Shown here: positions 8,609-62,794 of the stretch, piece by piece
Layout: each line of letters begins with the position of its first letter
How positions within the stretch are numbered: position 1 is the first letter of the stretch
Source of the DNA: a virus
Length of the DNA stretch: 64,000 nucleotides
Strand: one strand, 5' to 3'
IMG/VR virus record: IMGVR_UViG_3300025168_000034
Coordinates: 1 to 64,000 of that record
The notes under the pieces: generated by a model
The model's database searches: none
Seen by the model: only the letters and a program-made list of their open reading frames with translations
Told to the model about the DNA's origin: nothing
Translations under genes and position numbers: made by a program

Positions 8609-9139
8609 TTATGCCTTAACTGTTTTTATTATAATGTCAGGGTATTTGTCTTGAAGCTTGGCGACTGCATCTACATTCTTCTGTGAATCATCAATAAAGA
8701 ATATCTTGTTGTATCCTTTCTTGATTTCATTTTCAATGTATTGAGCTTTTTTTTGCGGGTTAGCATCGCCTACTGGTATTATGTATGGATCAATGTTGTG
8801 CTGTGTCTTGAAGAAGTGTTTCATTGGATATCCTTGTGCACGTGCTGTGAGTATGGTTACTTTGTTTTGTGCATTAGCCATAGCTTTCTTCAACATCTTC
8901 ATGTTACGATCAATAGTCTGTGGATTCTTTAGCATACTGTTAAAGTCTTTGAAATCAAACTTATCTCCAGGATCCTCTTCATAGGTAGCATATTCAGCTG
9001 GATCTAGTTTTAGTTTGGTGCCATCTGATTTTGTCACATATATGAATGCTTCGGATGTAGCTAATGTGTCATCAAAGTCAAATATGACAAGTCGTTTGCC
9101 AAGCTGCTTTTCATTTAGTATTTCTGCTAGTTTGATCAT
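8609..9139 (-). CDS. HAD-family phosphatase with capsid-targeting-like leader
   Basis: Begins MIKLAEILNE, one variant of the leader shared across this block; in T4 the prohead protease gp21 cuts after L/I-x-E, so mature protein would start at Lys11. The rest is a HAD fold with motif I FDFDDTL (about residues 20-26), motif II near ILTARA and motif III/IV as FFIDDS. It resembles phage HAD proteins related to the Swiss-army-knife RNA-repair type. Substrate unknown. It overlaps the next gene by four bases and would be the last gene of the leader block. Confidence 0.75.
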   Translation of the reverse strand: MIKLAEILNEKQLGKRLVIFDFDDTLATSEAFIYVTKSDGTKLKLDPAEYATYEEDPGDKFDFKDFNSMLKNPQTIDRNMKMLKKAMANAQNKVTILTARAQGYPMKHFFKTQHNIDPYIIPVGDANPQKKAQYIENEIKKGYNKIFFIDDSQKNVDAVAKLQDKYPDIIIKTVKA

Positions 9140-9381
9140 TTTAATCTAAAAAATTCTTCTGGTTTAACATTGCCGTCAATTAATGGAGAATACTTCCACG
9201 CAATAGACATAGCTTTCTTCAGAGCTGTAAGTTCCTTTTTAACCTTTGGATAGTCAGCTGGGTCACCAATTTTCTTTTTTAGATAGGCATCTTCGAGCCA
9301 TTCATAAGTTGTATTTACTGTACCAAAGTCTTTTGGATTGTAGTTCGTGCTTTCGTTCAATATATCTTTTAATTTAATCAT
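9136..9381 (-). CDS. Small leader-bearing protein, 81 aa
   Basis: Starts MIKLKDILNES, so predicted cleavage after Glu10 would leave about 71 residues. The remainder is lysine-rich and helical, with no known motif (KKKIGDPADYPKVKKELT). It overlaps both neighbours by four bases. The short basic nature would fit a DNA-bound internal head protein, as in T4 IPs, but this is inference. Confidence 0.7.
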   Translation of the reverse strand: MIKLKDILNESTNYNPKDFGTVNTTYEWLEDAYLKKKIGDPADYPKVKKELTALKKAMSIAWKYSPLIDGNVKPEEFFRLK

Positions 9382-10460
9382 CCTTTCTTCCAGCCTCCTC
9401 CAGCTGCTTTATATTTTTTAGCTGCCCATCCATTAGCATACGCAGATGGATACACATCAAATTTCTTTTTAGCTTGCGACTTGTAGTAGGACCATTTCGA
9501 CGGATCGGTTGGTATGTTCTTCTCTAAAAACAACTCAAGCTTTTCAGTTACTTTTGTTTTCACGTTTATTGGTTTATTTCCCTGTCCTGGTTGTTTCTTT
9601 CCTCCCTTACCAGCTTTGTTTTGTGCTGCTCGCTTTCTACGAGTAGCTGATTCTTTCTCTTTCTTACTCATGCCTCTTGCTTTAGCAGCAGGAACACATT
9701 TAGCATATCCTCTCTTCTTACCACTTGTTCCACATTCTGGATGTTTACCGGACTTGTCCTTCTTTCCAATGTTGACCCACTTCTGTTTGAACCACTTACG
9801 AAGATCTTCTGATACGTCTTGCTTTTTGAGCTTATCTCTGTTAGCTTTAGCCCAATCCATCCATATACTCTTGATACGTGACCAATCAGCTTTCTCTGTA
9901 CCTTTTTTGCCAGAGTTTTCAAAGTTCTTAATATTTTCTGTATGCCACTCTTCCATAGCCTGATCGAGTGTTATACTCTTATGCACTGCTCGTGTCACAA
10001 GTCCTTGCACATAGGCAGGAATCTCATCAGCTTGTGTGAGATAGTTTTCATATGTGTCGTAGTCTTGATTAGGATCGTGCGCAACAATAAACATATCATC
10101 AAAGCTTTGCTGACCGATATGTTCTAATTCATGTCTCAATGTTTCGTATACCTCTGCTTCTAATCCACTTAATGCTTGAGGAAACTCAGTAGGCTTATAC
10201 TGTACAACTATGTTTAAATCACCTGGCATGTCTACAGTACCACCTTCACCATAGGCTGTTATATCGTAAGCATAATCTAAATTTGGTCGTTCTTTATAGG
10301 ATATTTCTAAGTCAAATGCTCCTCGCTCTTTTCCACGATCTAGGATATAAAGTTCATCATAGTTTTTGAAAGATCCAATTGTTGGTTTGAGTGCTTTAAA
10401 CAATCCTTCAGCTGCTTGATCTAGCTCATTTTCTAACAATATATTTTTTAGCTTCATCAT
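9378..10460 (-). CDS. Leader-bearing HExxH metallopeptidase with basic C-terminal domains
   Basis: Opens with MMKLKNILLEN (leader, L-L-E cleavage site). Residues about 25-150 form a metallopeptidase-like domain with LRHELEHIGQ (HExxH type) and a later acidic helix. From about residue 215 a conserved phage domain follows: DLRKWFKQKWVNIG, then paired Cys (HPECGTSG and AKCVPAAKA) and a long Arg/Lys-rich stretch (TRRKRAAQNKAGKGGKK), similar to the DUF5872-type domain of phage virion proteins. The end (AKKYKAAGGGWKKG) is another small basic repeat seen in phage proteins. It could be a virion-packaged, DNA-bound protease. Confidence 0.75.
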   Translation of the reverse strand: MMKLKNILLENELDQAAEGLFKALKPTIGSFKNYDELYILDRGKERGAFDLEISYKERPNLDYAYDITAYGEGGTVDMPGDLNIVVQYKPTEFPQALSGLEAEVYETLRHELEHIGQQSFDDMFIVAHDPNQDYDTYENYLTQADEIPAYVQGLVTRAVHKSITLDQAMEEWHTENIKNFENSGKKGTEKADWSRIKSIWMDWAKANRDKLKKQDVSEDLRKWFKQKWVNIGKKDKSGKHPECGTSGKKRGYAKCVPAAKARGMSKKEKESATRRKRAAQNKAGKGGKKQPGQGNKPINVKTKVTEKLELFLEKNIPTDPSKWSYYKSQAKKKFDVYPSAYANGWAAKKYKAAGGGWKKG

Positions 10461-11215
10461 TTCTTTTTTCCACTTTTCATGTTAGCACACCAGTGGTACA
10501 TCTTTCCCTTCTCGCCTCCATGCTTCTTAGCTCTAGCTCGTAGATCAGTTACCGATCCTTTGCAGCTAGCTCCTGCACGTTTAACTCTACCTGGACTACT
10601 CTTAGCTTTCTCATTAAGTCCAAGTTTTGATAACACTCTTTGAAAGAAGCTTTTGACTTCTTTTGGTGGTATTGGATCACCATTCCCATCTATAGTGTTG
10701 ATCTTAATATTCTTCTCTTTGCACAACTTTATGCAATCTTTCATGTCTAAGTAATACAGCTTATCATTAGTCCACTCCTTTTGATCTTTATACTCTATGA
10801 TAATGTCAAAGCTTATTACATATTTGCTAAGTAGCACATCAAATTTCTTTTTAGACACAATACGCTCTTCTGCTTCAAAATTCTGCTTTCCTGCCTTTGT
10901 AAGGCTTCCCTTCTCAAATCCTTTTTGAGCATATGGTTTAATAGAAAATTCATTACTCATCTTATTTCCATCAAAAGTAAACCTACATGGAATATTTGAA
11001 CCAACCTGTGTTAAGAATCTCGACTCTTTGTGAAAGTTTTTATCACGAGTGAATGATATTGCATAAAAAGGATCATCCAAAGAACCTAATGCTCCACCTT
11101 CATCACTTTTAAGTTTCCCTGACTTGACAATGTCTATAGCTCTAGAGTAGCTGGTATAGTGGTATATGATTCCTACTTGCTTAGCTTCAAATAATATGTC
11201 TTTAAGCTTAATCAT
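10457..11215 (-). CDS. Leader-bearing ART-like protein with basic Cys tail
   Basis: Begins MIKLKDILFEAK. After the leader, IIYHYTSYSRAIDIVKSGKL recalls the start of ADP-ribosyltransferase-fold domains (H-Y-T followed by a helix and SGKL), including DarT-like and related families; a catalytic Glu is not certain (ERIVSKK region is a candidate). The last 50 residues, from SPGRVKRAGASCKGSV to MYHWCANMKSGKKK, are a small basic two-Cys domain that recurs in phage virion proteins. T4 also packages ART enzymes (Alt) through the same kind of leader, so an injected ART is an attractive reading, not proved. Confidence 0.65.
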   Translation of the reverse strand: MIKLKDILFEAKQVGIIYHYTSYSRAIDIVKSGKLKSDEGGALGSLDDPFYAISFTRDKNFHKESRFLTQVGSNIPCRFTFDGNKMSNEFSIKPYAQKGFEKGSLTKAGKQNFEAEERIVSKKKFDVLLSKYVISFDIIIEYKDQKEWTNDKLYYLDMKDCIKLCKEKNIKINTIDGNGDPIPPKEVKSFFQRVLSKLGLNEKAKSSPGRVKRAGASCKGSVTDLRARAKKHGGEKGKMYHWCANMKSGKKK

Positions 11216-11637
11216 ATTCTATTTATTTTCATATAGTAGATGCCATCCTTCTCTCCTAGGACTTCTCCACCTAACTTCTTCCAGAAGCCTATTGCTCCGT
11301 CTGGGCCAGCTGTTGTGTATAGTGTTATGTGTTGTGTGTTTGGACTATCTTTGAAGATCTTCTGTATCACTTGTTTTCCTATACCTTGTCTGTATTGCAT
11401 TATTGCCATCCCGCCATACATGAATATTGAGTTGGGTGATGATGGTCCCTTGCCTTTCTGCTTGATTCGGTCCATCGGATCAAACGGTATAGTTCCTGTG
11501 TCTTCTATATGAAATACTCCGACCTTTTGACGTCCTGAGAATACGAAATGAGCTCCAGTACCTAACTCTTTCTTTTTAGTGGTATCGTTCTTGTAGCTGA
11601 TCGTAGCTTCAAATAATATGTCTTTAAGCTTGATCAT
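11212..11637 (-). CDS. Leader-bearing GNAT-type acetyltransferase
   Basis: Start at 11637 (MIKLKDILFEAT); a longer in-frame start adds only MRIL. The core is a GNAT fold: a hydrophobic strand MYGGMAIMQYRQGIGKQVIQ holds the acetyl-CoA pyrophosphate loop Q-x-x-G-I-G, followed by helix and the late strand GAIGFWKKLGGEV typical of the family. It would transfer an acetyl group from acetyl-CoA to an unknown amine, perhaps a host protein after injection. It overlaps the genes on both sides. The 24 bases of its start are nearly identical to those of two neighbours. Confidence 0.75.
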   Translation of the reverse strand: MIKLKDILFEATISYKNDTTKKKELGTGAHFVFSGRQKVGVFHIEDTGTIPFDPMDRIKQKGKGPSSPNSIFMYGGMAIMQYRQGIGKQVIQKIFKDSPNTQHITLYTTAGPDGAIGFWKKLGGEVLGEKDGIYYMKINRI

Positions 11638-12208
11638 TAGGATTCTCAAATTTTGGTTGAATAAGAAAGTAGTCGTTGAATACTCTCACTCCATATGGCT
11701 TACTAAGTTTTGGTAGATTCTTTTTAATGAATGCTAGATATAGTTTACCTCTTCTGGTATCCACACCATCTGTTGAATCCACATCATCATCACCACCATC
11801 TAATGATTTTATAGGAGCTACTTCTAGGTTATGTATATACCAATGCTCTTGCCATTCTTCTATGAAATCAAACACAATGTCTTTTATTGTTGACATCACT
11901 CGGTATTGTTCTCCTAGGTTTGTGTCATCTAAACTAAACCCACCTCCTGGTGTCTTCACATGAAAATCTACTTCTGATTGGATTGTTCCGGGAGTGCGCA
12001 TCACATCAAGATCAATACTGACGACATACTGAGTTTGTTTATCTGTAGTGAATTCATACTCAATCATGTTAGCATCATATGATTCATACGGCATGTTAGA
12101 ATCACTACCTTTATACTCTTCTGCAGATTTTCCAAGAGTTCGTTTAAATGCAAATGGCTTTGCAGACGCATCACCTATCTCATATAATATGTCTTTAAGC
12201 TTTATCAT
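11624..12208 (-). CDS. Leader-bearing hypothetical protein, 194 aa
   Basis: MIKLKDILYEIG leader, then IGDASAKPFAFKR, which matches a segment inside the next protein (REIGDGSAKAFPWQ). Both then have a beta-rich domain and end with RRGKLYLAFIKKNLP or a close variant. The two genes therefore share a homologous domain of about 150-180 residues. No catalytic motif is evident. It may be structural or a binding domain of an internal head protein. Confidence 0.7.
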   Translation of the reverse strand: MIKLKDILYEIGDASAKPFAFKRTLGKSAEEYKGSDSNMPYESYDANMIEYEFTTDKQTQYVVSIDLDVMRTPGTIQSEVDFHVKTPGGGFSLDDTNLGEQYRVMSTIKDIVFDFIEEWQEHWYIHNLEVAPIKSLDGGDDDVDSTDGVDTRRGKLYLAFIKKNLPKLSKPYGVRVFNDYFLIQPKFENPNDQA

Positions 12209-13164
12209 GGTAAGTGTATTACGTAAGCATCACCTTGAGCTCCAGATGGCTGTCTTTCTACTCTTGCTCCAGGCACTTGTTTTTGTATGTATGCTTTATA
12301 GAGATTTGATCTCCTACTATCTTCTTTTTCTGATCTTCCTTCCTCTTTTGTTGTGTTAAACGATATCTTTTTAGGTTCTAAAGCATGCTCCATTTCACCA
12401 TATAAATCCTTATCGTTTATGTGCATATCGAATGTTGAGTCTAAAAAGTCTTTGACAATCTCTACAACTGTAGCCATTACTCTAAATGCTCCAATTCCTG
12501 TCACTACTCCATAGTTTGCTGATTGCGATATGTTGAATGATGAGCTGCTTCCTAATGGTCCAAATGCTAGATCCCACTCATTGGTTCCTGCATGTACGAA
12601 GCTTACATAATAATCTCCTTTATCTGTTTTGAATGTATATCCAAAATCCTGACTATCTGCAGCTGGATGCTCTTCGTGATACTGCCATGGGAATGCTTTT
12701 GCAGATCCATCACCTATCTCTCTCAACATAGGCATCAGCTTAGCCATATCTGCAGAGTCTGTTGGCATCTCTTCTTTTCCTACTTCCTTTTCATCAGTGG
12801 GAATGTCTTCATACATGCTTATGGTATCTCCTGACATCTCCCAAGGACCCCAGTGCTTTGCTTTGAGTATCCATTTTAGTGATTCATCTGTATCGTAGTA
12901 CTTATTATCTTCCTTACGAACACCTCCGATAGCATAGTATAAATCTTTAGGGATTTCTAACTCTCTTCCATTAGAATGATCTAATACTGTGTCGTTTGTT
13001 TCTACCCAAGCATGACCAAATCTCTTACCTTCCAATGCTCCTTGTCCATTCACCATTCCATGTACTAACGTATGACCATCACGTAATTTTGTCATAAGTC
13101 TGCCAGCTGCTTGATAGCAATCTCCTTTTGCAACTTCTAGTAATATGTTGTTAAGTTTAATCAT
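12205..13164 (-). CDS. Leader-bearing papain-fold-like hydrolase fused to EIGD domain
   Basis: MIKLNNILLEVA leader (cleavage L-L-E). Residues 12-90 contain GDCYQAAGRLM, then GHAWVE and VLDHSNG, an ordered Cys, His and Asp/Asn like a papain or transglutaminase-type triad; similar domains occur in many marine phage proteins. Residues about 145-319 are the EIGDxSAKxF domain shared with the gene below. If active, the first domain could cut amide bonds or deamidate. Packed with the leader proteins, four-base overlap at both ends. Confidence 0.7.
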   Translation of the reverse strand: MIKLNNILLEVAKGDCYQAAGRLMTKLRDGHTLVHGMVNGQGALEGKRFGHAWVETNDTVLDHSNGRELEIPKDLYYAIGGVRKEDNKYYDTDESLKWILKAKHWGPWEMSGDTISMYEDIPTDEKEVGKEEMPTDSADMAKLMPMLREIGDGSAKAFPWQYHEEHPAADSQDFGYTFKTDKGDYYVSFVHAGTNEWDLAFGPLGSSSSFNISQSANYGVVTGIGAFRVMATVVEIVKDFLDSTFDMHINDKDLYGEMEHALEPKKISFNTTKEEGRSEKEDSRRSNLYKAYIQKQVPGARVERQPSGAQGDAYVIHLP

Positions 13165-13343
13165 TCAAATTTTCTTCTATGCTTTGCACGTTGATCTTCT
13201 AACACATATTCAACTACATCTCTTTTACCGCAATGTGGACAATTCAAATGTTCAATATCTTCAGCTTCATTAATCTTCCACTCTCCTTTACAAGAGCTGC
13301 ATTTATAAATGTATGTGTGTCGGATAAATACTTTGTGACTCAT
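13161..13343 (-). CDS. Zinc-ribbon protein, 60 aa
   Basis: Two CxxC pairs (CSSCKGEW and CPHCGKRD) 20 residues apart form a zinc ribbon; the C-terminus is basic (KHRRKFE). The start at 13343 (MSHKVFIR) couples by ATGA to the 18-aa ORF upstream; a start at 13364 is also open. It lacks the leader of its neighbours, so it is probably expressed with them but not targeted to the head. Confidence 0.7.
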   Translation of the reverse strand: MSHKVFIRHTYIYKCSSCKGEWKINEAEDIEHLNCPHCGKRDVVEYVLEDQRAKHRRKFE

Positions 13344-13396
13344 ATTGCTGTATCGGGATACCAATCTTCGTCATCCCATTCGTTTGGTTGTTTCAT
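13340..13396 (-). CDS. Micro-ORF, 18 aa, acidic
   Basis: Reads MKQPNEWDDEDWYPDTAI. Both ends overlap the neighbouring genes by four bases (ATGA), bridging an otherwise 50-base gap, which is the main support. The WDDEDW core is very acidic. Too short for a family call; it could simply keep translation coupled. Confidence 0.5.
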   Translation of the reverse strand: MKQPNEWDDEDWYPDTAI

Positions 13397-13866
13397 TTTA
13401 TTGGTCCCCCTCCGACCCAAGCATCACAAGTTCTAGCTCCTGCACACTTAAACCAAAAGAATTCACAAAAACCTATATTTGCATTTTTAACTATTGTCTT
13501 ACCATCTGTTCCAATGGCTTTTTCAATCTTAGCAAGTGTAGCTTTCTTCTGATCAAATGCTCCACAATTACCACACCTTGATTGTTTAGCAGCCTCTACT
13601 GTGGTATTCCATAGCTCAGCTTTGTCTTCCCAAAAAGGTTTAGATCCTTTCTCGTCGTCTGGATTAAGTGGTCCATAGCTGTATTCTTTAACTGTACGAT
13701 TTCTGTTTAGAGTATTGAGATCTAAATCAGTAATTGAATCCTCAGGCTTGCCATCTTTGTTACCAATCTCCTTTTCTTTTTTTAAAGCAGCAGGAGTATT
13801 GTATCCATCATAATCTGATAGCTTTCCTTCAAGGACAATATCTTTTACTATTCCTTTAAGTTTCAT
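13393..13866 (-). CDS. Leader-bearing cysteine-rich protein, 157 aa
   Basis: The N-terminus MKLKGIVKDIVLEGK carries a leader variant ending I-V-L-E. The C-terminal 65 residues hold a Cys set (CGNCGAF, then GFCEFFWFKCAGARTCDAW) ending in GGGPIK. This CxxC...C...C...RTCxxW pattern is known from phage structural proteins and resembles a small metal or Fe-S binding fold. A virion protein is likely. Stop and next start share a base with the gene above. Confidence 0.7.
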   Translation of the reverse strand: MKLKGIVKDIVLEGKLSDYDGYNTPAALKKEKEIGNKDGKPEDSITDLDLNTLNRNRTVKEYSYGPLNPDDEKGSKPFWEDKAELWNTTVEAAKQSRCGNCGAFDQKKATLAKIEKAIGTDGKTIVKNANIGFCEFFWFKCAGARTCDAWVGGGPIK

Positions 13867-14438
13867 CAGAATTTACCTATCATTATTTTAGTTACTGGCT
13901 TTCCGTTAATTTGTCTTGTGTACCATCCATTGCCCGGCGCTTTGCCTTTAGGATGTTTTCCATGCCATGTTGTTTCTTGAGACCTTCTATCACCTAATAC
14001 TTTACGTACTTGTGCTTCATCGTCTACAGTTGGCACTCCACCTTTTCCTACAAATGAATCATATGCAGGTCCTGATACTTCTACATAGTTTCCAGGAGTT
14101 TTAAGTTCAGCTGATTTCCTTTGTAGGAGATTCTTGATATTCCCTCGTTCACCATCGTGTCCCATTCCAGTATGTTTAACACCGAATGGAGTCTTTTTTC
14201 CAAAGTAAACTACATCAATTTCAGGATCTGCATCTATATCAGCAACTCTCCAGAATTTGAGATTTGGATCTTTCATATCTTCTGGCTTCTTGTACTTGAG
14301 ATGTCCGCCAATATTAGCATAGGCATTTGCAACAAGATTATAGAGATCTTGTTTGAGATCATCTACATCTGCTGGAGAAGGAGTTACGTATTTACCTTTT
14401 GGTAAATCTAATTCCTTTAGAATATCTTTTAACTTCAT
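13866..14438 (-). CDS. Leader-bearing hypothetical protein, 190 aa
   Basis: MKLKDILKELDL opens the first gene of the leader block (I-L-K-E then Leu). The rest is a soluble alpha/beta sequence with VDVVYFGKKTPFGVKHTGMG and a basic end (TKIMIGKF); no known family. Its ATG is two bases after the element GACTATTTATAA (14,452-14,441), so any transcript starting from a promoter there would have almost no leader. Confidence 0.7.
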   Translation of the reverse strand: MKLKDILKELDLPKGKYVTPSPADVDDLKQDLYNLVANAYANIGGHLKYKKPEDMKDPNLKFWRVADIDADPEIDVVYFGKKTPFGVKHTGMGHDGERGNIKNLLQRKSAELKTPGNYVEVSGPAYDSFVGKGGVPTVDDEAQVRKVLGDRRSQETTWHGKHPKGKAPGNGWYTRQINGKPVTKIMIGKF

Positions 14439-14452
14439 ACTTATAAATAGTC
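14439..14452 (-). promoter_or_regulatory. GACTATTTATAA element
   Basis: Minus-strand GACTATTTATAA ends two bases before the ATG of the first leader gene. The same 12-mer, or one mismatch, precedes the genes starting at 17,339, 44,502 and 57,201. Read on the plus strand it is TATAAATAGTC, which contains the T4 late -10 sequence TATAAATA in the opposite direction. Role unknown: late promoter, translation element or antisense promoter. Confidence 0.4.
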
Positions 14453-14902
14453 TTCAAAAATCTTTATAGGAGTTCTGTGACCGTGATCTTTCAAGTGGTA
14501 ACGAAGCTGACCTTTCTTGATGCTCTTTCTGAGTAGCTTAGCTGTCTCAGTAGGATCAATCACATCATCTTCACTTCCATTAATCATCACACCGACCACT
14601 TCATTAGGTCCTTCGTAGACTCCCTCAGGCTCAAACTTTCGACTATGGAGAGCAGGATTAAGAAGCACAACTGGTGTCTTTGTAAAAGTAGCAATCATGT
14701 AAGCAAAATAGCCTCCCATACTACTACCAATAATAATATCAGGCTCAAATCCTCGAACCAAATCTAACATCTGTTGAAACAACTTAGGATTGTGATAGTC
14801 CATTTCTGGAGCAATCACCTCATACTTGCTAGCAAGGAAGTCAACCTTTGGCCCTCCTTGCCCACTCTCTAAACCGTGAAAATAAATTACTTTTTGTTTC
14901 AT
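14441..14902 (-). CDS. YqiA-like alpha/beta-hydrolase (esterase)
   Basis: A 153-residue single-domain hydrolase like the YqiA/UPF0227 family. The nucleophile elbow is GSSMGGY (about residue 60), an Asp-bearing strand follows (NGSEDDVIDP), and the catalytic His lies in KDHGHRT near the end. The opening YFHGLESG is the family's first motif. It would hydrolyse small acyl esters. A strong promoter-like motif and palindrome precede it. Confidence 0.8.
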   Translation of the reverse strand: MKQKVIYFHGLESGQGGPKVDFLASKYEVIAPEMDYHNPKLFQQMLDLVRGFEPDIIIGSSMGGYFAYMIATFTKTPVVLLNPALHSRKFEPEGVYEGPNEVVGVMINGSEDDVIDPTETAKLLRKSIKKGQLRYHLKDHGHRTPIKIFEDYL

Positions 14903-43643: not shown

Positions 43644-43672
43644 ATAATACGACTTTTTTTTTGTTTTTGCTA
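43644..43672 (-). promoter_or_regulatory. Promoter-like motif upstream of the glycan island
   Basis: TAGCAA, 17 bases (AAACAAAAAAAAAGTCG), TATTAT (43,649-43,644), 19 bases before the ATG at 43,624. It would be the main start for the whole sugar island. Confidence 0.5.
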
Positions 43673-44113
43673 ATTAACTATTGTAATTTTTACCATTTGG
43701 CTACCTGACATCTTTTGCAACATCTTGATAGCAGCTCTAGCTTTGAGAGTCTTCTCTTGTGCCATATTCTTGGCAGTTGTCATTGCTTGAGCTTCTCCTA
43801 TACTTTTAGAGTTTTTTACAAGTGCATCAACCCACGATTGTGCATCTCTATCTTGAAAACCTCCTAGACCAAAACTACCATCACGCATACTACTCATGGG
43901 TGGTGATTTAGGTACATAGTCTTGTTTAAGAGCATCGTATCTGAACATTTTTTGTGAGACTCCTTGGAATCGTTTTTCATTTACAATTTTGATTAGTTGT
44001 CCTTTTGGAAATGTCATTCTCCATGCACCTCCTCCAATTTCAAATCTGTTAGTGACTTCAAAATAACCCTCAGGCCATTCAACAGCTTCGTTTAGTAAAT
44101 TCTTTAGTTTCAT
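43670..44113 (-). CDS. Leader-bearing hypothetical protein, 147 aa
   Basis: Begins MKLKNLLNEAVE, an L-L-N-E leader variant as in the block at 8,609-14,438. The rest is a soluble domain with GGGAWRMTFPKGQLIKIVNE and a helical end (SIGEAQAMTTAKNM). No family recognised. It is coupled by ATGA to the metallopeptidase above, so the pair may form a second internal-protein locus. Confidence 0.7.
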   Translation of the reverse strand: MKLKNLLNEAVEWPEGYFEVTNRFEIGGGAWRMTFPKGQLIKIVNEKRFQGVSQKMFRYDALKQDYVPKSPPMSSMRDGSFGLGGFQDRDAQSWVDALVKNSKSIGEAQAMTTAKNMAQEKTLKARAAIKMLQKMSGSQMVKITIVN

Positions 44114-59880: not shown

Positions 59881-60363
59881 CTACTTTTTGTCTTTGTCTT
59901 TTTGCCATTGACCATCGTACAACTCTGCTTCTGCATTCTCCATCATAATGATCTGAGCTACTCTAGCACCTTTTTCTAAAACAATAGTTTCAGTAGCTAT
60001 AAGCATACCACCCATCTCATCTACCTCAAATCCTGGATCGTAAACTCCTGATGTGATAACACCTCCTGATCTTAGAACAGAGGACCTATGCCTAATAAAA
60101 GCTGTGTGTTTGTCATCCAACTTACATCCTTGTTCAAAGGTGAGTGAATAGGTACCTGGTTCTAGTTGATATAGAAACTTACCATCATCATTAATGAATG
60201 GTGTAACTTCATCGTAATCAAATACAGTGGTTTTATCTTTCATAACCATACCACCATTTACTTTATTTATTGACTTTAAGGTTAAGTCATAACCAACTTG
60301 CGCTTTCTTTCCTTTGTCTTTTGTATCAAGCAAGGAAGCGACTCCATCTGCATTTAGTAACAT
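59881..60363 (-). CDS. dCTP deaminase/dUTPase-like protein
   Basis: 160 residues of the trimeric Dcd/dUTPase fold: FIRHRSSVLRSGGVITSGVY followed by DPG (motif 3-like, with active site) and the late Arg-rich strand (KGARVAQIIMMEN). It would make dUMP or dUTP from dCTP or hydrolyse dUTP, adjusting dNTP supply next to the modified-guanine genes. Confidence 0.8.
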   Translation of the reverse strand: MLLNADGVASLLDTKDKGKKAQVGYDLTLKSINKVNGGMVMKDKTTVFDYDEVTPFINDDGKFLYQLEPGTYSLTFEQGCKLDDKHTAFIRHRSSVLRSGGVITSGVYDPGFEVDEMGGMLIATETIVLEKGARVAQIIMMENAEAELYDGQWQKDKDKK

Positions 60364-60372
60364 ATTTGTATC

Positions 60373-60531
60373 TTATTTGTTTTGTGTATTAATACTTCTT
60401 TTTAAAACTGCAGCAATTAATAACATTGCTCCTCCTATTACCAACGCATGCATAAGAGTTGGTGATCCTTCATACTGACAACACTGCTCTCCGCATGCTC
60501 CCATAGTGTGTTTAATTAAATCTGTGTTCAT
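60373..60531 (-). CDS. Small membrane protein with Cys cluster, 52 aa
   Basis: ATG at 60,531 to TAA at 60,373: a Cys-rich N-terminus (MGACGEQCCQYEG) then a hydrophobic helix (ALVIGGAMLLIAAVL) and a basic end. Function unknown. Preceded by a promoter-like motif. Confidence 0.5.
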   Translation of the reverse strand: MNTDLIKHTMGACGEQCCQYEGSPTLMHALVIGGAMLLIAAVLKRSINTQNK

Positions 60532-60553
60532 ATTATTTGGTTTTATTTGTATT

Positions 60554-60582
60554 AATATACGGTTTATTATTCTATTTTCCTA
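60554..60582 (-). promoter_or_regulatory. Promoter-like motif
   Basis: TAGGAA, 17 bases, CCG TATATT (60,559-60,554) on the minus strand; the -35-like part overlaps the last codons of the 44-aa ORF. It would drive the 52-aa gene and dCTP deaminase. Confidence 0.5.
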
Positions 60583-60706
60583 ATTCTTTTATCTTTTCTT
60601 TAAGCTCATCAATCATTGCTTGAACCTCATCAGGCTCCATTGTAATAGCACAGCATGTGCCAACGTGTTCTGATATCTCTTCTAGTAACTCTAAAGCTTC
60701 TTCCAT
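60572..60706 (-). CDS. Small acidic protein, 44 aa
   Basis: ATG at 60,706 to TAG at 60,572: helical, acidic (MEEALELLEEISEHVGTCCA), with CC in the middle and Lys-rich end. The start shares a base with the QueE stop, so it is translationally coupled. No family. Confidence 0.55.
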   Translation of the reverse strand: MEEALELLEEISEHVGTCCAITMEPDEVQAMIDELKEKIKELGK

Positions 60707-61563
60707 CACACTCCTCGTTCTGTATCGAATGCTATGATGTGATCTCTACCAGTCATATTGTATCCCTCTCTTTCGCACATTCTGAATACTTTGGGATACA
60801 TTTCGATTAGTGTTACTCTCGTATCTCCGGCTGGCATCATATATGTCTTGTCTTTTGGAATATTCATCTCAACTCTGAAAGCTTCGATCTCCTCTAAGTT
60901 TTTATCTGTACCGTCCCATACTGGTTTGAAGTGATAGTCTGTGTGATAGTCTAAAGTCTTACGCATTGCGTCGTAATTCATTCTCAACTTGTTGTGTTGT
61001 TTTATCATACGCTCATCCGTTTCTTTACCAGATGGCGTCTTAGCGCCCAAAACGGGAACACTATTACTAAACTTAGGGCTAAGACTAATAAGCCCAATAG
61101 GATGATCAGTTGGTAAAAAGTGACTACCTTCAGTTTCAATAGTGATAAGAATACCTCTTTCATTTGCAAAGTGTGTTAATTCGTTTACTAGAGCTGGATG
61201 CATTGTTGGTGATCCTCCAGTTAACATCATTTCTTTTACGTGAGGATTGTCGTCATAAATTTTAATAATGTCGTTGAAGTTGAATGTACCTTTCTCTGGA
61301 TGAATACTTGTGTACCAAGAATCACACCATCCACCCTCACCAAAGTAACATCTGTGAGTACATCCAGTTGTTCTTACTGCAATAGTAGGTCTTCCGAATC
61401 TACTACCTTCAGACTGAACACATCTGTAAACTTCCACTATAGGTAGTACTTTATCGTAATTCTCAATACGTTTTAGTTGCTTTTCTTTTGTTGCTTGATA
61501 AGGTTTGTTCCTATCAAAATCGTAGTAATGCTTTGAGTGTTTTCTTGTGTCTTGCATGCTCAT
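60706..61563 (-). CDS. queE: 7-carboxy-7-deazaguanine synthase QueE
   Basis: 285 residues, radical-SAM QueE: PIVEVYRCVQSEGSRFGRPT is the substrate-side strand; the Fe-S cluster Cys are in TGCTHRCYFGEGGWCDSW (spacing C-x3-C-x7-C, not the common C-x3-C-x2-C); MMLTGGSPTMHP is the SAM-binding GGEP-like motif; ITIETEGS follows. It makes 7-carboxy-7-deazaguanine from carboxytetrahydropterin, the key step of the pathway. Confidence 0.85.
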   Translation of the reverse strand: MSMQDTRKHSKHYYDFDRNKPYQATKEKQLKRIENYDKVLPIVEVYRCVQSEGSRFGRPTIAVRTTGCTHRCYFGEGGWCDSWYTSIHPEKGTFNFNDIIKIYDDNPHVKEMMLTGGSPTMHPALVNELTHFANERGILITIETEGSHFLPTDHPIGLISLSPKFSNSVPVLGAKTPSGKETDERMIKQHNKLRMNYDAMRKTLDYHTDYHFKPVWDGTDKNLEEIEAFRVEMNIPKDKTYMMPAGDTRVTLIEMYPKVFRMCEREGYNMTGRDHIIAFDTERGV

Positions 61564-61566
61564 AAA

Positions 61567-61812
61567 TTAAAATGGTAAGTCATCAACCTTTGGTTCTGGT
61601 CTCTTTGGTGTATCTGGCTTTGGTGCAGGAGGGTTAAAATAGCTGTCTAAGAATTGTTTTGGATACATTAGTATCTTTCCTTCGTATGTAGGATTCTGTA
61701 TTTCTTTGCTTTCAATGCGTACACCTTGCTTAAACGCTTCTTCTGCAACTTTCTTACCTAGCTCTGCTCCTGCAGCTCTGTTTAAGTAATCGTATAATGA
61801 TAACATCTCCAT
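61567..61812 (-). CDS. Phage protein with SSB-like DDLPF tail, 81 aa
   Basis: Begins MEMLSLYDYLNRAAGAELGK, with KEIQNPTYEGKILMYP and a Pro/Lys-rich linker; it ends PKVDDLPF. The DDLPF tip is like that by which bacterial SSB recruits partner proteins. The first 65 residues match a small phage family of unknown function. It may bind the same partners as SSB. Confidence 0.65.
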   Translation of the reverse strand: MEMLSLYDYLNRAAGAELGKKVAEEAFKQGVRIESKEIQNPTYEGKILMYPKQFLDSYFNPPAPKPDTPKRPEPKVDDLPF

Positions 61813-61814
61813 AA

Positions 61815-61889
61815 CTAATCTTTTATGTATTCGTATACAAAATCTATATCACCAAACGTGGTTGTGTATGTCCAATAACTATCCTTCAT
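61815..61889 (-). CDS. Possible micro-ORF, 24 aa
   Basis: ATG at 61,889 to TAG at 61,815 reads MKDSYWTYTTTFGDIDFVYE plus YIKD. It overlaps the QueD-like stop by 11 bases and fills a 66-base gap. Short and acidic; support is positional. Confidence 0.4.
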   Translation of the reverse strand: MKDSYWTYTTTFGDIDFVYEYIKD

Positions 61890-62346
61890 AGATTGCTGTA
61901 TTTTTCTTGTTCTCAAAAAATTCCACTCTTGCGATACTCACTCTGCCTTCTGTCTCTTCTTGTACAAACGCGTTTAGCTTTTTGTATATAAACTCAGCAA
62001 ATCTCTCAGCGCCTACTGGACCATCCATTTCTCTTAATTGGATGATACCCTCATCATCTGCTTCTTGAAAATGAGTTAAGTATGGATCATCTTTTGCAAT
62101 TACAACTGTATGATCAAACATATAATCCATCCACTCTTTAGGAGACATTCCATCAATCTTAGTATTGGATCTTTTCATTCCTCCAAAGTCCCATACCCAA
62201 TTACGATGATCAAGATCACCCTCGAAGGTTACTTTAAACTCTATTGCATATCCATGTAAGAATCTGCAGTGTGTTGTTGTTGCTTGGTATTGACGAAATA
62301 CTGTACTGAATCCGTCAAAGATTTTTGTTGATTGAAATTTAGGCAT
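61879..62346 (-). CDS. queD: QueD-family protein (6-carboxytetrahydropterin synthase)
   Basis: 155 residues of the phage QueD type: KIFDGFSTVFRQYQATTTHC, RFLHGYAIEF, LDHRNWVWDFGGMK and FDHTVVIAKDDP, GAERFAEFIYKKL. The usual HGH zinc pair appears as HGY, so one canonical zinc ligand seems replaced. It should turn dihydroneopterin triphosphate into carboxytetrahydropterin for QueE, if active. Confidence 0.75.
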   Translation of the reverse strand: MPKFQSTKIFDGFSTVFRQYQATTTHCRFLHGYAIEFKVTFEGDLDHRNWVWDFGGMKRSNTKIDGMSPKEWMDYMFDHTVVIAKDDPYLTHFQEADDEGIIQLREMDGPVGAERFAEFIYKKLNAFVQEETEGRVSIARVEFFENKKNTAIYEG

Positions 62347-62794
62347 ATTGTTCTTTTGTTTGTTTACTTATACTACTATACAAAGAATAAAACGATTTTG
62401 CACCTTTTGTGTCCTGATCAAACGCTTCGGATAAACACTTATCCCAAACATCTATCTCAAAGTAATCTATTAATGCTAACTTGAAATCGAGCAAAATGTT
62501 TCCTTCTTCCCAGTTATAATCCTCCATCAGCTTATTATATCGCTTTCGATACCTACGCTCGATGTCTAGGTATCTGTGATCTTGTTCTGGGTTTGTGCCT
62601 TTGTAGGATTCTACAAATGCTTTGAGCTCTCTGTCTCTTGTTTTAAACTCTTCCTCAGCTTGACGTTTGTAGTCAGACTCATCAAAGTCACCATGCTCGA
62701 TCTGTTGTAAGATGAACGGTTTGAGTTTGTGAGCGTGTTTAGGATTTAGCTTCTTCTTTTTTGGATAACGTCTCCACCAATAAAATCTACTCAT
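62339..62794 (-). CDS. Hypothetical basic protein, 151 aa
   Basis: Begins MSRFYWWRRYPKKKKLNPKH, a basic segment, then a helix-rich charged domain (LDIERRYRKRYNKLMEDYNW) and an acidic end. Possibly nucleic-acid binding. Overlaps neighbours by about 8 bases. Confidence 0.6.
   Translation of the reverse strand: MSRFYWWRRYPKKKKLNPKHAHKLKPFILQQIEHGDFDESDYKRQAEEEFKTRDRELKAFVESYKGTNPEQDHRYLDIERRYRKRYNKLMEDYNWEEGNILLDFKLALIDYFEIDVWDKCLSEAFDQDTKGAKSFYSLYSSISKQTKEQYA
62375..62404 (-). promoter_or_regulatory. Promoter-like motif before QueD
   Basis: GTGCAA, 17 bases (AATCGTTTTATTCTTTG), TATAGT (62,380-62,375), inside the 3' part of the 151-aa gene and 29 bases before the QueD ATG. Confidence 0.5.

Follow-up and report, generated by a model that had tools for sequence, protein, structure and literature searches.

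A short N-terminal leader probably directs separately encoded enzymes into the head of a T4-like phage

IMG/VR virus record IMGVR_UViG_3300025168_000034 is the 165,609-bp sequence of an environmental T4-like phage, of which we analyzed bases 1-64000 (the window) together with related loci. At 8609-14438 of the window lie eleven successive minus-strand genes, most overlapping by 4 bp; we refer to them as P1 to P10 plus a micro-ORF (open reading frame) of 18 aa. Apart from the micro-ORF and a zinc-ribbon protein, the genes (9/11) start with variants of one leader, MIKLKDILxE, and all nine leaders listed in an initial annotation of the DNA were confirmed on the minus strand. This leader is very probably a capsid-targeting propeptide, whose cargo would be packaged in the head, cut by a gp21-type protease and injected with the DNA. 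Late in infection, the co-transcribed cargo would be made with the leader at its N-terminus and docked by it onto the prohead core, beside the gp21-adjacent core protein, which in relatives has this leader too. As the head matures, the gp21-type serine protease would cut after the leader Glu, the freed enzymes would stay with the DNA in the capsid, and at the next infection they would enter the host together with it. The cargo (ADP-ribosyltransferase-like, phosphatase, peptidase-like, acetyltransferase-like and Ntn hydrolase proteins) would there disarm defences or reprogramme the host, a role that zeta-toxin kinase, NUDIX, ART-PolyVal and RNase T proteins would fill in relatives. We infer docking, cutting, packaging, injection and each enzyme's target from sequence. 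The initial annotation had already proposed such T4-like logic, and the proposal gains support from gp21 genes, the association of leader and protease across contigs, a leader on core proteins, and conserved [LIV]xE and [LI]xE|Cys junctions.

Chance is excluded as the source of the leader's recurrence. The exact leader DNA pattern matched 4 times in the window and 0 times in 100 shuffles, and it matched at least 119 stretches of IMG/VR compared with 0 for a residue-scrambled pattern of equal degeneracy. Bacterial and archaeal genomes (257 Gb) yielded only nine matching stretches, three of them in contigs of Flavobacteriales metagenome-assembled genomes, which makes the motif in essence a viral one. 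With a relaxed pattern, 6 starts were seen in the phage genome and each of the large contigs searched (14/14) had one or more; the reversed pattern gave 0. The expectation that more leader proteins would be found elsewhere in the genome was borne out, for example at 43670-44113 (minus strand; MKLKNLLNE followed by 138 aa) and at 158124-158996. The leader string was absent from the papers searched.

Conservation acts on the peptide. In the window leaders synonymous change has reached saturation (pS 0.79) against a pN of 0.10, so the peptide has been kept and not the DNA alone; pN/pS from the metagenome leader set was left out as evidence, since leaders there were chosen by peptide. Glu occupied residue 10 in 60/81 starts versus 16/218 other starts in the same loci. 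The 81 starts were picked by MIKLxx[ILVM][ILVM] only, with exact-pattern matches removed, and Glu was not selected for; many of the starts without E10 have Glu one or two places off. These data bear on a reading in which the leader serves as an element at the level of DNA or translation, with no protein role, either a ribosome-binding and start region shared through gene conversion or a fast-translation N-terminus. Such an element would fit the three leaders of P4, P5 and P6, which are near-identical as DNA also, and the 4-bp overlaps of genes that appear translationally coupled. However, its probability is reduced to almost nothing by the amino acids kept despite saturated synonymous sites, by the tenfold enrichment of E10, by [LIV]xE retained at internal junctions that have no start, and by the association of the leader with gp21.

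The initial annotation had reasoned that a genome with no gp21-like protease and no L/I-x-E sites would speak against its reading, and a check of the genome recovered the protease. The gp21 homolog lies outside the window at 101586-102200 (Peptidase_S77, hereafter S77; E 5.9e-27 by profile search), and in alignment it keeps the His/Ser/Asp catalytic positions of T4 gp21. It forms a cluster at 97-106 kb with the portal (phrog_213), the gp23 major capsid protein (phrog_138) and an acidic scaffold-like protein. By gp23 and gp21, the closest isolates are Flavobacterium phage immuto and Microcystis phage Mel-JY01 (~52-54%). Across contigs of any length, S77 was present on 37/81 that bear the leader and on 2/50 controls (Fisher p 1e-7); at ≥100 kb, it was present on 12/12 compared with 1/7 in a control unmatched for phage type (p 3e-4). 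Control contigs were fetched with random DNA words, first 16-mers, with 14-mers added since the 16-mers gave few. A 166-kb contig with an Ntn hydrolase gene and without S77 (G137) was considered as a counter-example and dropped: gp23 is absent as well, so the head module is missing from that contig.

The leader is also found close to the protease gene. In genomes with a single leader gene, that gene can adjoin gp21 (0.9 kb in G012; 1.2 kb in G068). The gene directly after gp21 in this phage (101203-101586) encodes a prohead-core protein beginning MKTNILKQLSE, whose homologs (phmmer E 3e-29 to 1e-22), seven of them on gp21 contigs, start MIKLKDILKE, MKLKDLLNE or MKKMKNLLSE. The gp21 gene of T4 is flanked by genes for core proteins that serve as gp21 substrates.

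The position of the predicted cut is indicated by internal junctions. The domain of P6, which starts E|IG(D/E), recurs in six internal fusions (P7 of the window and proteins of loci L128, L135, L137, L139 and L140). Although targeting residues are mostly lost at these junctions, [LIV]xE is kept before the domain in 6/6 (MLRE, MLKE, TLTE, VLNE, IVNE, IVTE), which points to cutting after Glu. In P7 the junction is a leader-like MAKLMPMLRE (12718-12747, minus strand) directly before the P6-type domain, a predicted internal gp21 site. A leader protein at L122:2575-3393 has a second, internal MKLTSLLNE and one at L139:4001-4585 has an internal [LIV]xE site, as if these were small polyproteins for gp21 cutting.

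A second type of junction occurs in the leader protein at 158124-158996 (L006:18624-19496), a C45/AAT-type N-terminal nucleophile (Ntn) hydrolase that begins MIKLRNLLHELNE|CVIARC. It matched NF040521 at E 9e-9, below the curated cut-off (homologs 4e-12 and 5e-12), and PF03417 at 4.6e-4; a PDB sequence search with it gave no match. Its Cys14 aligns with the nucleophile Cys of cellular C45-type enzymes, and [LI]xE directly precedes the same Cys in every homolog, including that of Chryseobacterium phage MA9V-1, in N-termini that otherwise differ. In cellular C45 relatives, this Cys is preceded by Gly after a long propeptide, or by the initiator Met. Ntn hydrolases require the nucleophile Cys at the N-terminus, and cutting at [LI]xE|C would therefore yield an active enzyme. 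It is possible that the hydrolase cuts itself at this bond. We see an even chance that cutting in the head is an activation switch too, such that the Ntn hydrolase would be inactive in the producing cell and active only in the capsid, and that the tag would allow a large set of injected enzymes, most of them undescribed, to be catalogued from sequence alone. These junctions also bear on whether the leader could be a docking or localisation peptide that binds a phage or host complex inside the infected cell and undergoes neither cutting nor packaging. An amphipathic N-terminus of this length could dock, but this reading is very unlikely, as it leaves unexplained why the leader is tied to gp21 and sits on the gp21-adjacent core protein, why it ends in L/I-x-E, and why the Ntn nucleophile Cys comes right after Glu. 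In MA9V-1 (OR050627.1), a weak S77 match (6e-8) was seen at 126606-126944 within a 1349-aa open frame, possibly a protease fused into a very large protein.

The leader behaves as a portable tag. Single-linkage BLAST placed 229 leader proteins (220 from other loci and the nine of the window) in 93 body families. The HAD body of P1 stands behind a leader in L128, L277, L107, L132 and L276 and without one in L027, L074, L086, L125 and L094, where it starts at the same junction point. Homologs of P9 carry differing leaders (for example MIKLINILNE and MIKLKDILKE), the P10 homolog in L073 starts MIKLKDILTE, and the P5 homolog in L097 (65% identity) has its own leader. In L128, a close relative with 88% DNA identity on one flank, a single gene replaces the P4 body, P5, P6 and half of P7; it carries a leader, a HExxH body and the P4 tail, which is 92% identical, and the second half of P7 has diverged there. 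Compared with the window, cargo is evidently swapped between a fixed leader and a fixed tail.

Recognizable bodies in relatives include zeta toxin (a kinase), ART-PolyVal (1.3e-27), NUDIX, RNase_T, 2'-5' RNA ligase, RimK, phosphoribosyltransferase, AAT-type hydrolase, lysozyme, M23 peptidase and cell-wall hydrolase. The last three, together with the leader on a prohead-core protein, would also be expected of a general virion tag that fixes proteins to the core, neck or tail of the particle as it is built, there to serve in structure or assembly and not as injected effectors. We consider such a tag unlikely, since intracellular enzymes and conflict domains account for many of the recognizable bodies (zeta toxin, ART-PolyVal, NUDIX, RNase_T, 2'-5' RNA ligase, AAT-type hydrolase) and the fast turnover of cassettes fits host-specific effectors better than structural parts.

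Packaging, cutting and injection of tagged proteins are known from T4 internal proteins (PMC9026906, PMC3012670, PMC12373910). The first ten residues of IPIII suffice for head targeting; in this capsid-targeting sequence (CTS), targeting depends on residues 4 and 7 and processing on residues 8 and 10, with the gp21 cut falling after L/I-x-E (PMC9026906). At these key positions the window leader has L, I, L and E. As with IPI, IPII and IPIII, about 10 N-terminal residues ending in the Glu of L/I-x-E are found on otherwise unrelated proteins, in a genome with a gp21-family protease, and the bodies are diverse with high turnover. T-even internal proteins are highly diverse, with the CTS alone in common (PMC3012670), and T4 Ip1-3 each block a distinct GmrSD enzyme (PMC12373910). 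Unlike these small inhibitors, the proteins here are mostly predicted enzymes, encoded by an operon of nine leader genes and by others elsewhere; in relatives the gp21-adjacent core protein has the leader too, and internal [LIV]xE junctions occur. By analogy, the window system would work like the T4 CTS and internal proteins but with a separate leader, on a far larger scale and with enzymatic cargo. The initial annotation had ranked it as the strongest candidate for an undescribed system in the window; the logic is already described in T4, and what stands of the claim is the different leader and the much larger scale. New here are the separate leader, the scale, the enzymatic cargo, the core-protein leader and the sites within proteins, as is the possibility that the head protease activates an Ntn hydrolase.

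Other phages offer partial parallels. T4 Alt, an ADP-ribosyltransferase packaged in the head, has an N-terminal propeptide of 6 residues that ends ITE (PMC5694885). P4 would likewise be a protein of this fold behind a short gp21-type propeptide, but its leader differs and its fold is nearest DarT and Tpt1 rather than assigned to the Alt family. In the giant phages phiKZ and SPN3US a head protease also trims packaged ejection proteins after a Glu motif, S/A-x-E (PMC5694885, PMC10052503), although their propeptides are mostly >100 residues and the leaders here 9-13 residues. Polyvalent and MuF-fused phage effectors have similar cargo domains (ART-PolyVal, NUDIX) and are predicted to be injected (PMC9503650); those effectors are parts of one large protein or joined to MuF, whereas here separate genes have their own tags. 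P4, P5 and P10 are basic, as are the tails of P3, and this would be in keeping with packing alongside DNA, by analogy with T4 internal proteins whose lysines touch the phosphates of DNA (PMC3012670); P6 and P7 are acidic.

Several points weigh against a capsid-targeting propeptide. First, the claim that the leaders end in L/I-x-E holds for 8/9, as P9 ends V-L-E and departs from the strict gp21 motif, and L-x-E is itself a weak motif, frequent in phage proteins. Second, the likeness of MIKLKDILxE to the T4 CTS, MKTYQEFIAE, is positional: the two are of equal length and only M1 and E10 are identical. Third, the control at ≥100 kb consists of those seven unmatched contigs, and many short leader contigs, which are fragments, have no S77. 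Fourth, the start of the phage's own gp21-adjacent core protein, MKTNILKQLSE, is a distant, leader-like sequence. Lastly, given the lysozyme and wall-hydrolase bodies in relatives, not all cargo need act in the cytoplasm.

Injected phage proteins have usually been learned one virion at a time. If the leader works as proposed, a ten-residue motif would mark injected cargo across many uncultured T4-like phages, and about 90 body families from a small sample would become candidates for anti-defence activity. It would also mean that the CTS principle of T4, so far described mostly in T-even phages, exists in an enlarged form, with enzymes as cargo and another leader, and head maturation may in one natural case activate an enzyme.

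We infer the functions of individual cargo proteins in the operon, all on the minus strand, as follows. P1 (8609-9139) has the leader MIKLAEILNE (9110-9139) and a HAD-superfamily phosphatase body, as initially annotated (DUF2608 1.9e-8, phrog_415 2.7e-9). P2 (9136-9381) has MIKLKDILNE (9352-9381) and a 71-aa body with no family match in profile searches. P3 (9378-10460) joins MMKLKNILLE (10431-10460) to a metallopeptidase-like body, with a HELEH motif (HExxH) read from sequence, and to basic tails made of a phrog_23735-type module and a DUF5872-like YPSAYANG module, both of which occur in other proteins. P4 (10457-11215) has MIKLKDILFE (11186-11215), a body likely to be of ADP-ribosyltransferase fold and a Lys/Cys-rich tail. 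H19, T21 and E116 are invariant in 7 homologs, and an AlphaFold2 model (pLDDT 65, from few sequences) matched first Tpt1 (7yw4; E 1.6e-3, prob 1.00) and DarT (7omv; E 0.049, prob 0.95) in the PDB, which together make the fold likely; in a PDB sequence search DarT was the sole match, a weak one (E 2.8). The earlier assignment is thus upheld at the level of the fold and no further. P5 (11212-11637; leader MIKLKDILFE, 11608-11637) had been called a GNAT and remains GNAT-like, with a weak match to Acetyltransf_1 (E 0.035).

P6 (11624-12208) has MIKLKDILYE (12179-12208) and a domain beginning E|IGDASAKPF, with ~15 homologs in other phages. P7 (12205-13164) has MIKLNNILLE (13135-13164), a Cys/His/Asp hydrolase-like domain (C16, H51 and D62 invariant in 4 homologs by sequence reading) and a second copy of the P6 domain; its predicted structure (pLDDT 36 from 4 sequences) was not used. 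P6 is homologous to residues ~140-298 of P7 (E 3e-5 to 9e-4), so the view that the bodies are mutually unrelated fails for this pair. Searches of isolated phages by tblastn gave no match to P1 or P7. P8 (13161-13343) is the zinc-ribbon protein without a leader, 95% identical in the syntenic L128, and the micro-ORF (13340-13396; MKQPNEWDDEDWYPDTAI) has no leader either. P9 (13393-13866) has the leader MKLKGIVKDIVLE (13828-13866) and a Cys-rich body, and P10 (13866-14438) has MKLKDILKE (14412-14438) and a basic body. Just upstream, at 14441-14902, is a UPF0227/YqiA-like alpha/beta hydrolase without a leader, conserved in L128.

Short tail modules rich in Cys and Lys (YAKCVP, RCRKG, PNCV, YPSAYANG) turn up repeatedly on leader proteins and on other phage proteins, in the window in the tails of P3 (9378-9800) and P4 (10457-10610) and at many other loci. 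Their enrichment on leader proteins is small and suggestive, and they are possibly DNA-binding packing modules. The cultured Microcystis phage Mel-JY01 has three leader genes at 60276-62718 (L143:10276-12718), with MIKLKSLLQE, MIKLKSLLKE and MIKLMSLVTE on ART-like bodies. Flavobacterium phage immuto is another cultured relative that has leader genes. Before the terminase of the phage studied here, a block at 107972-114258 encodes proteins with short N-termini ending near xxE (MKKLDKLIE, MELKKLLSE, MNDLSKFLVDSILNE). One protein of the block is cytidylyltransferase-like and 757 aa long, and nucleotidyltransferase-like genes lie at a similar position in immuto and Mel-JY01.

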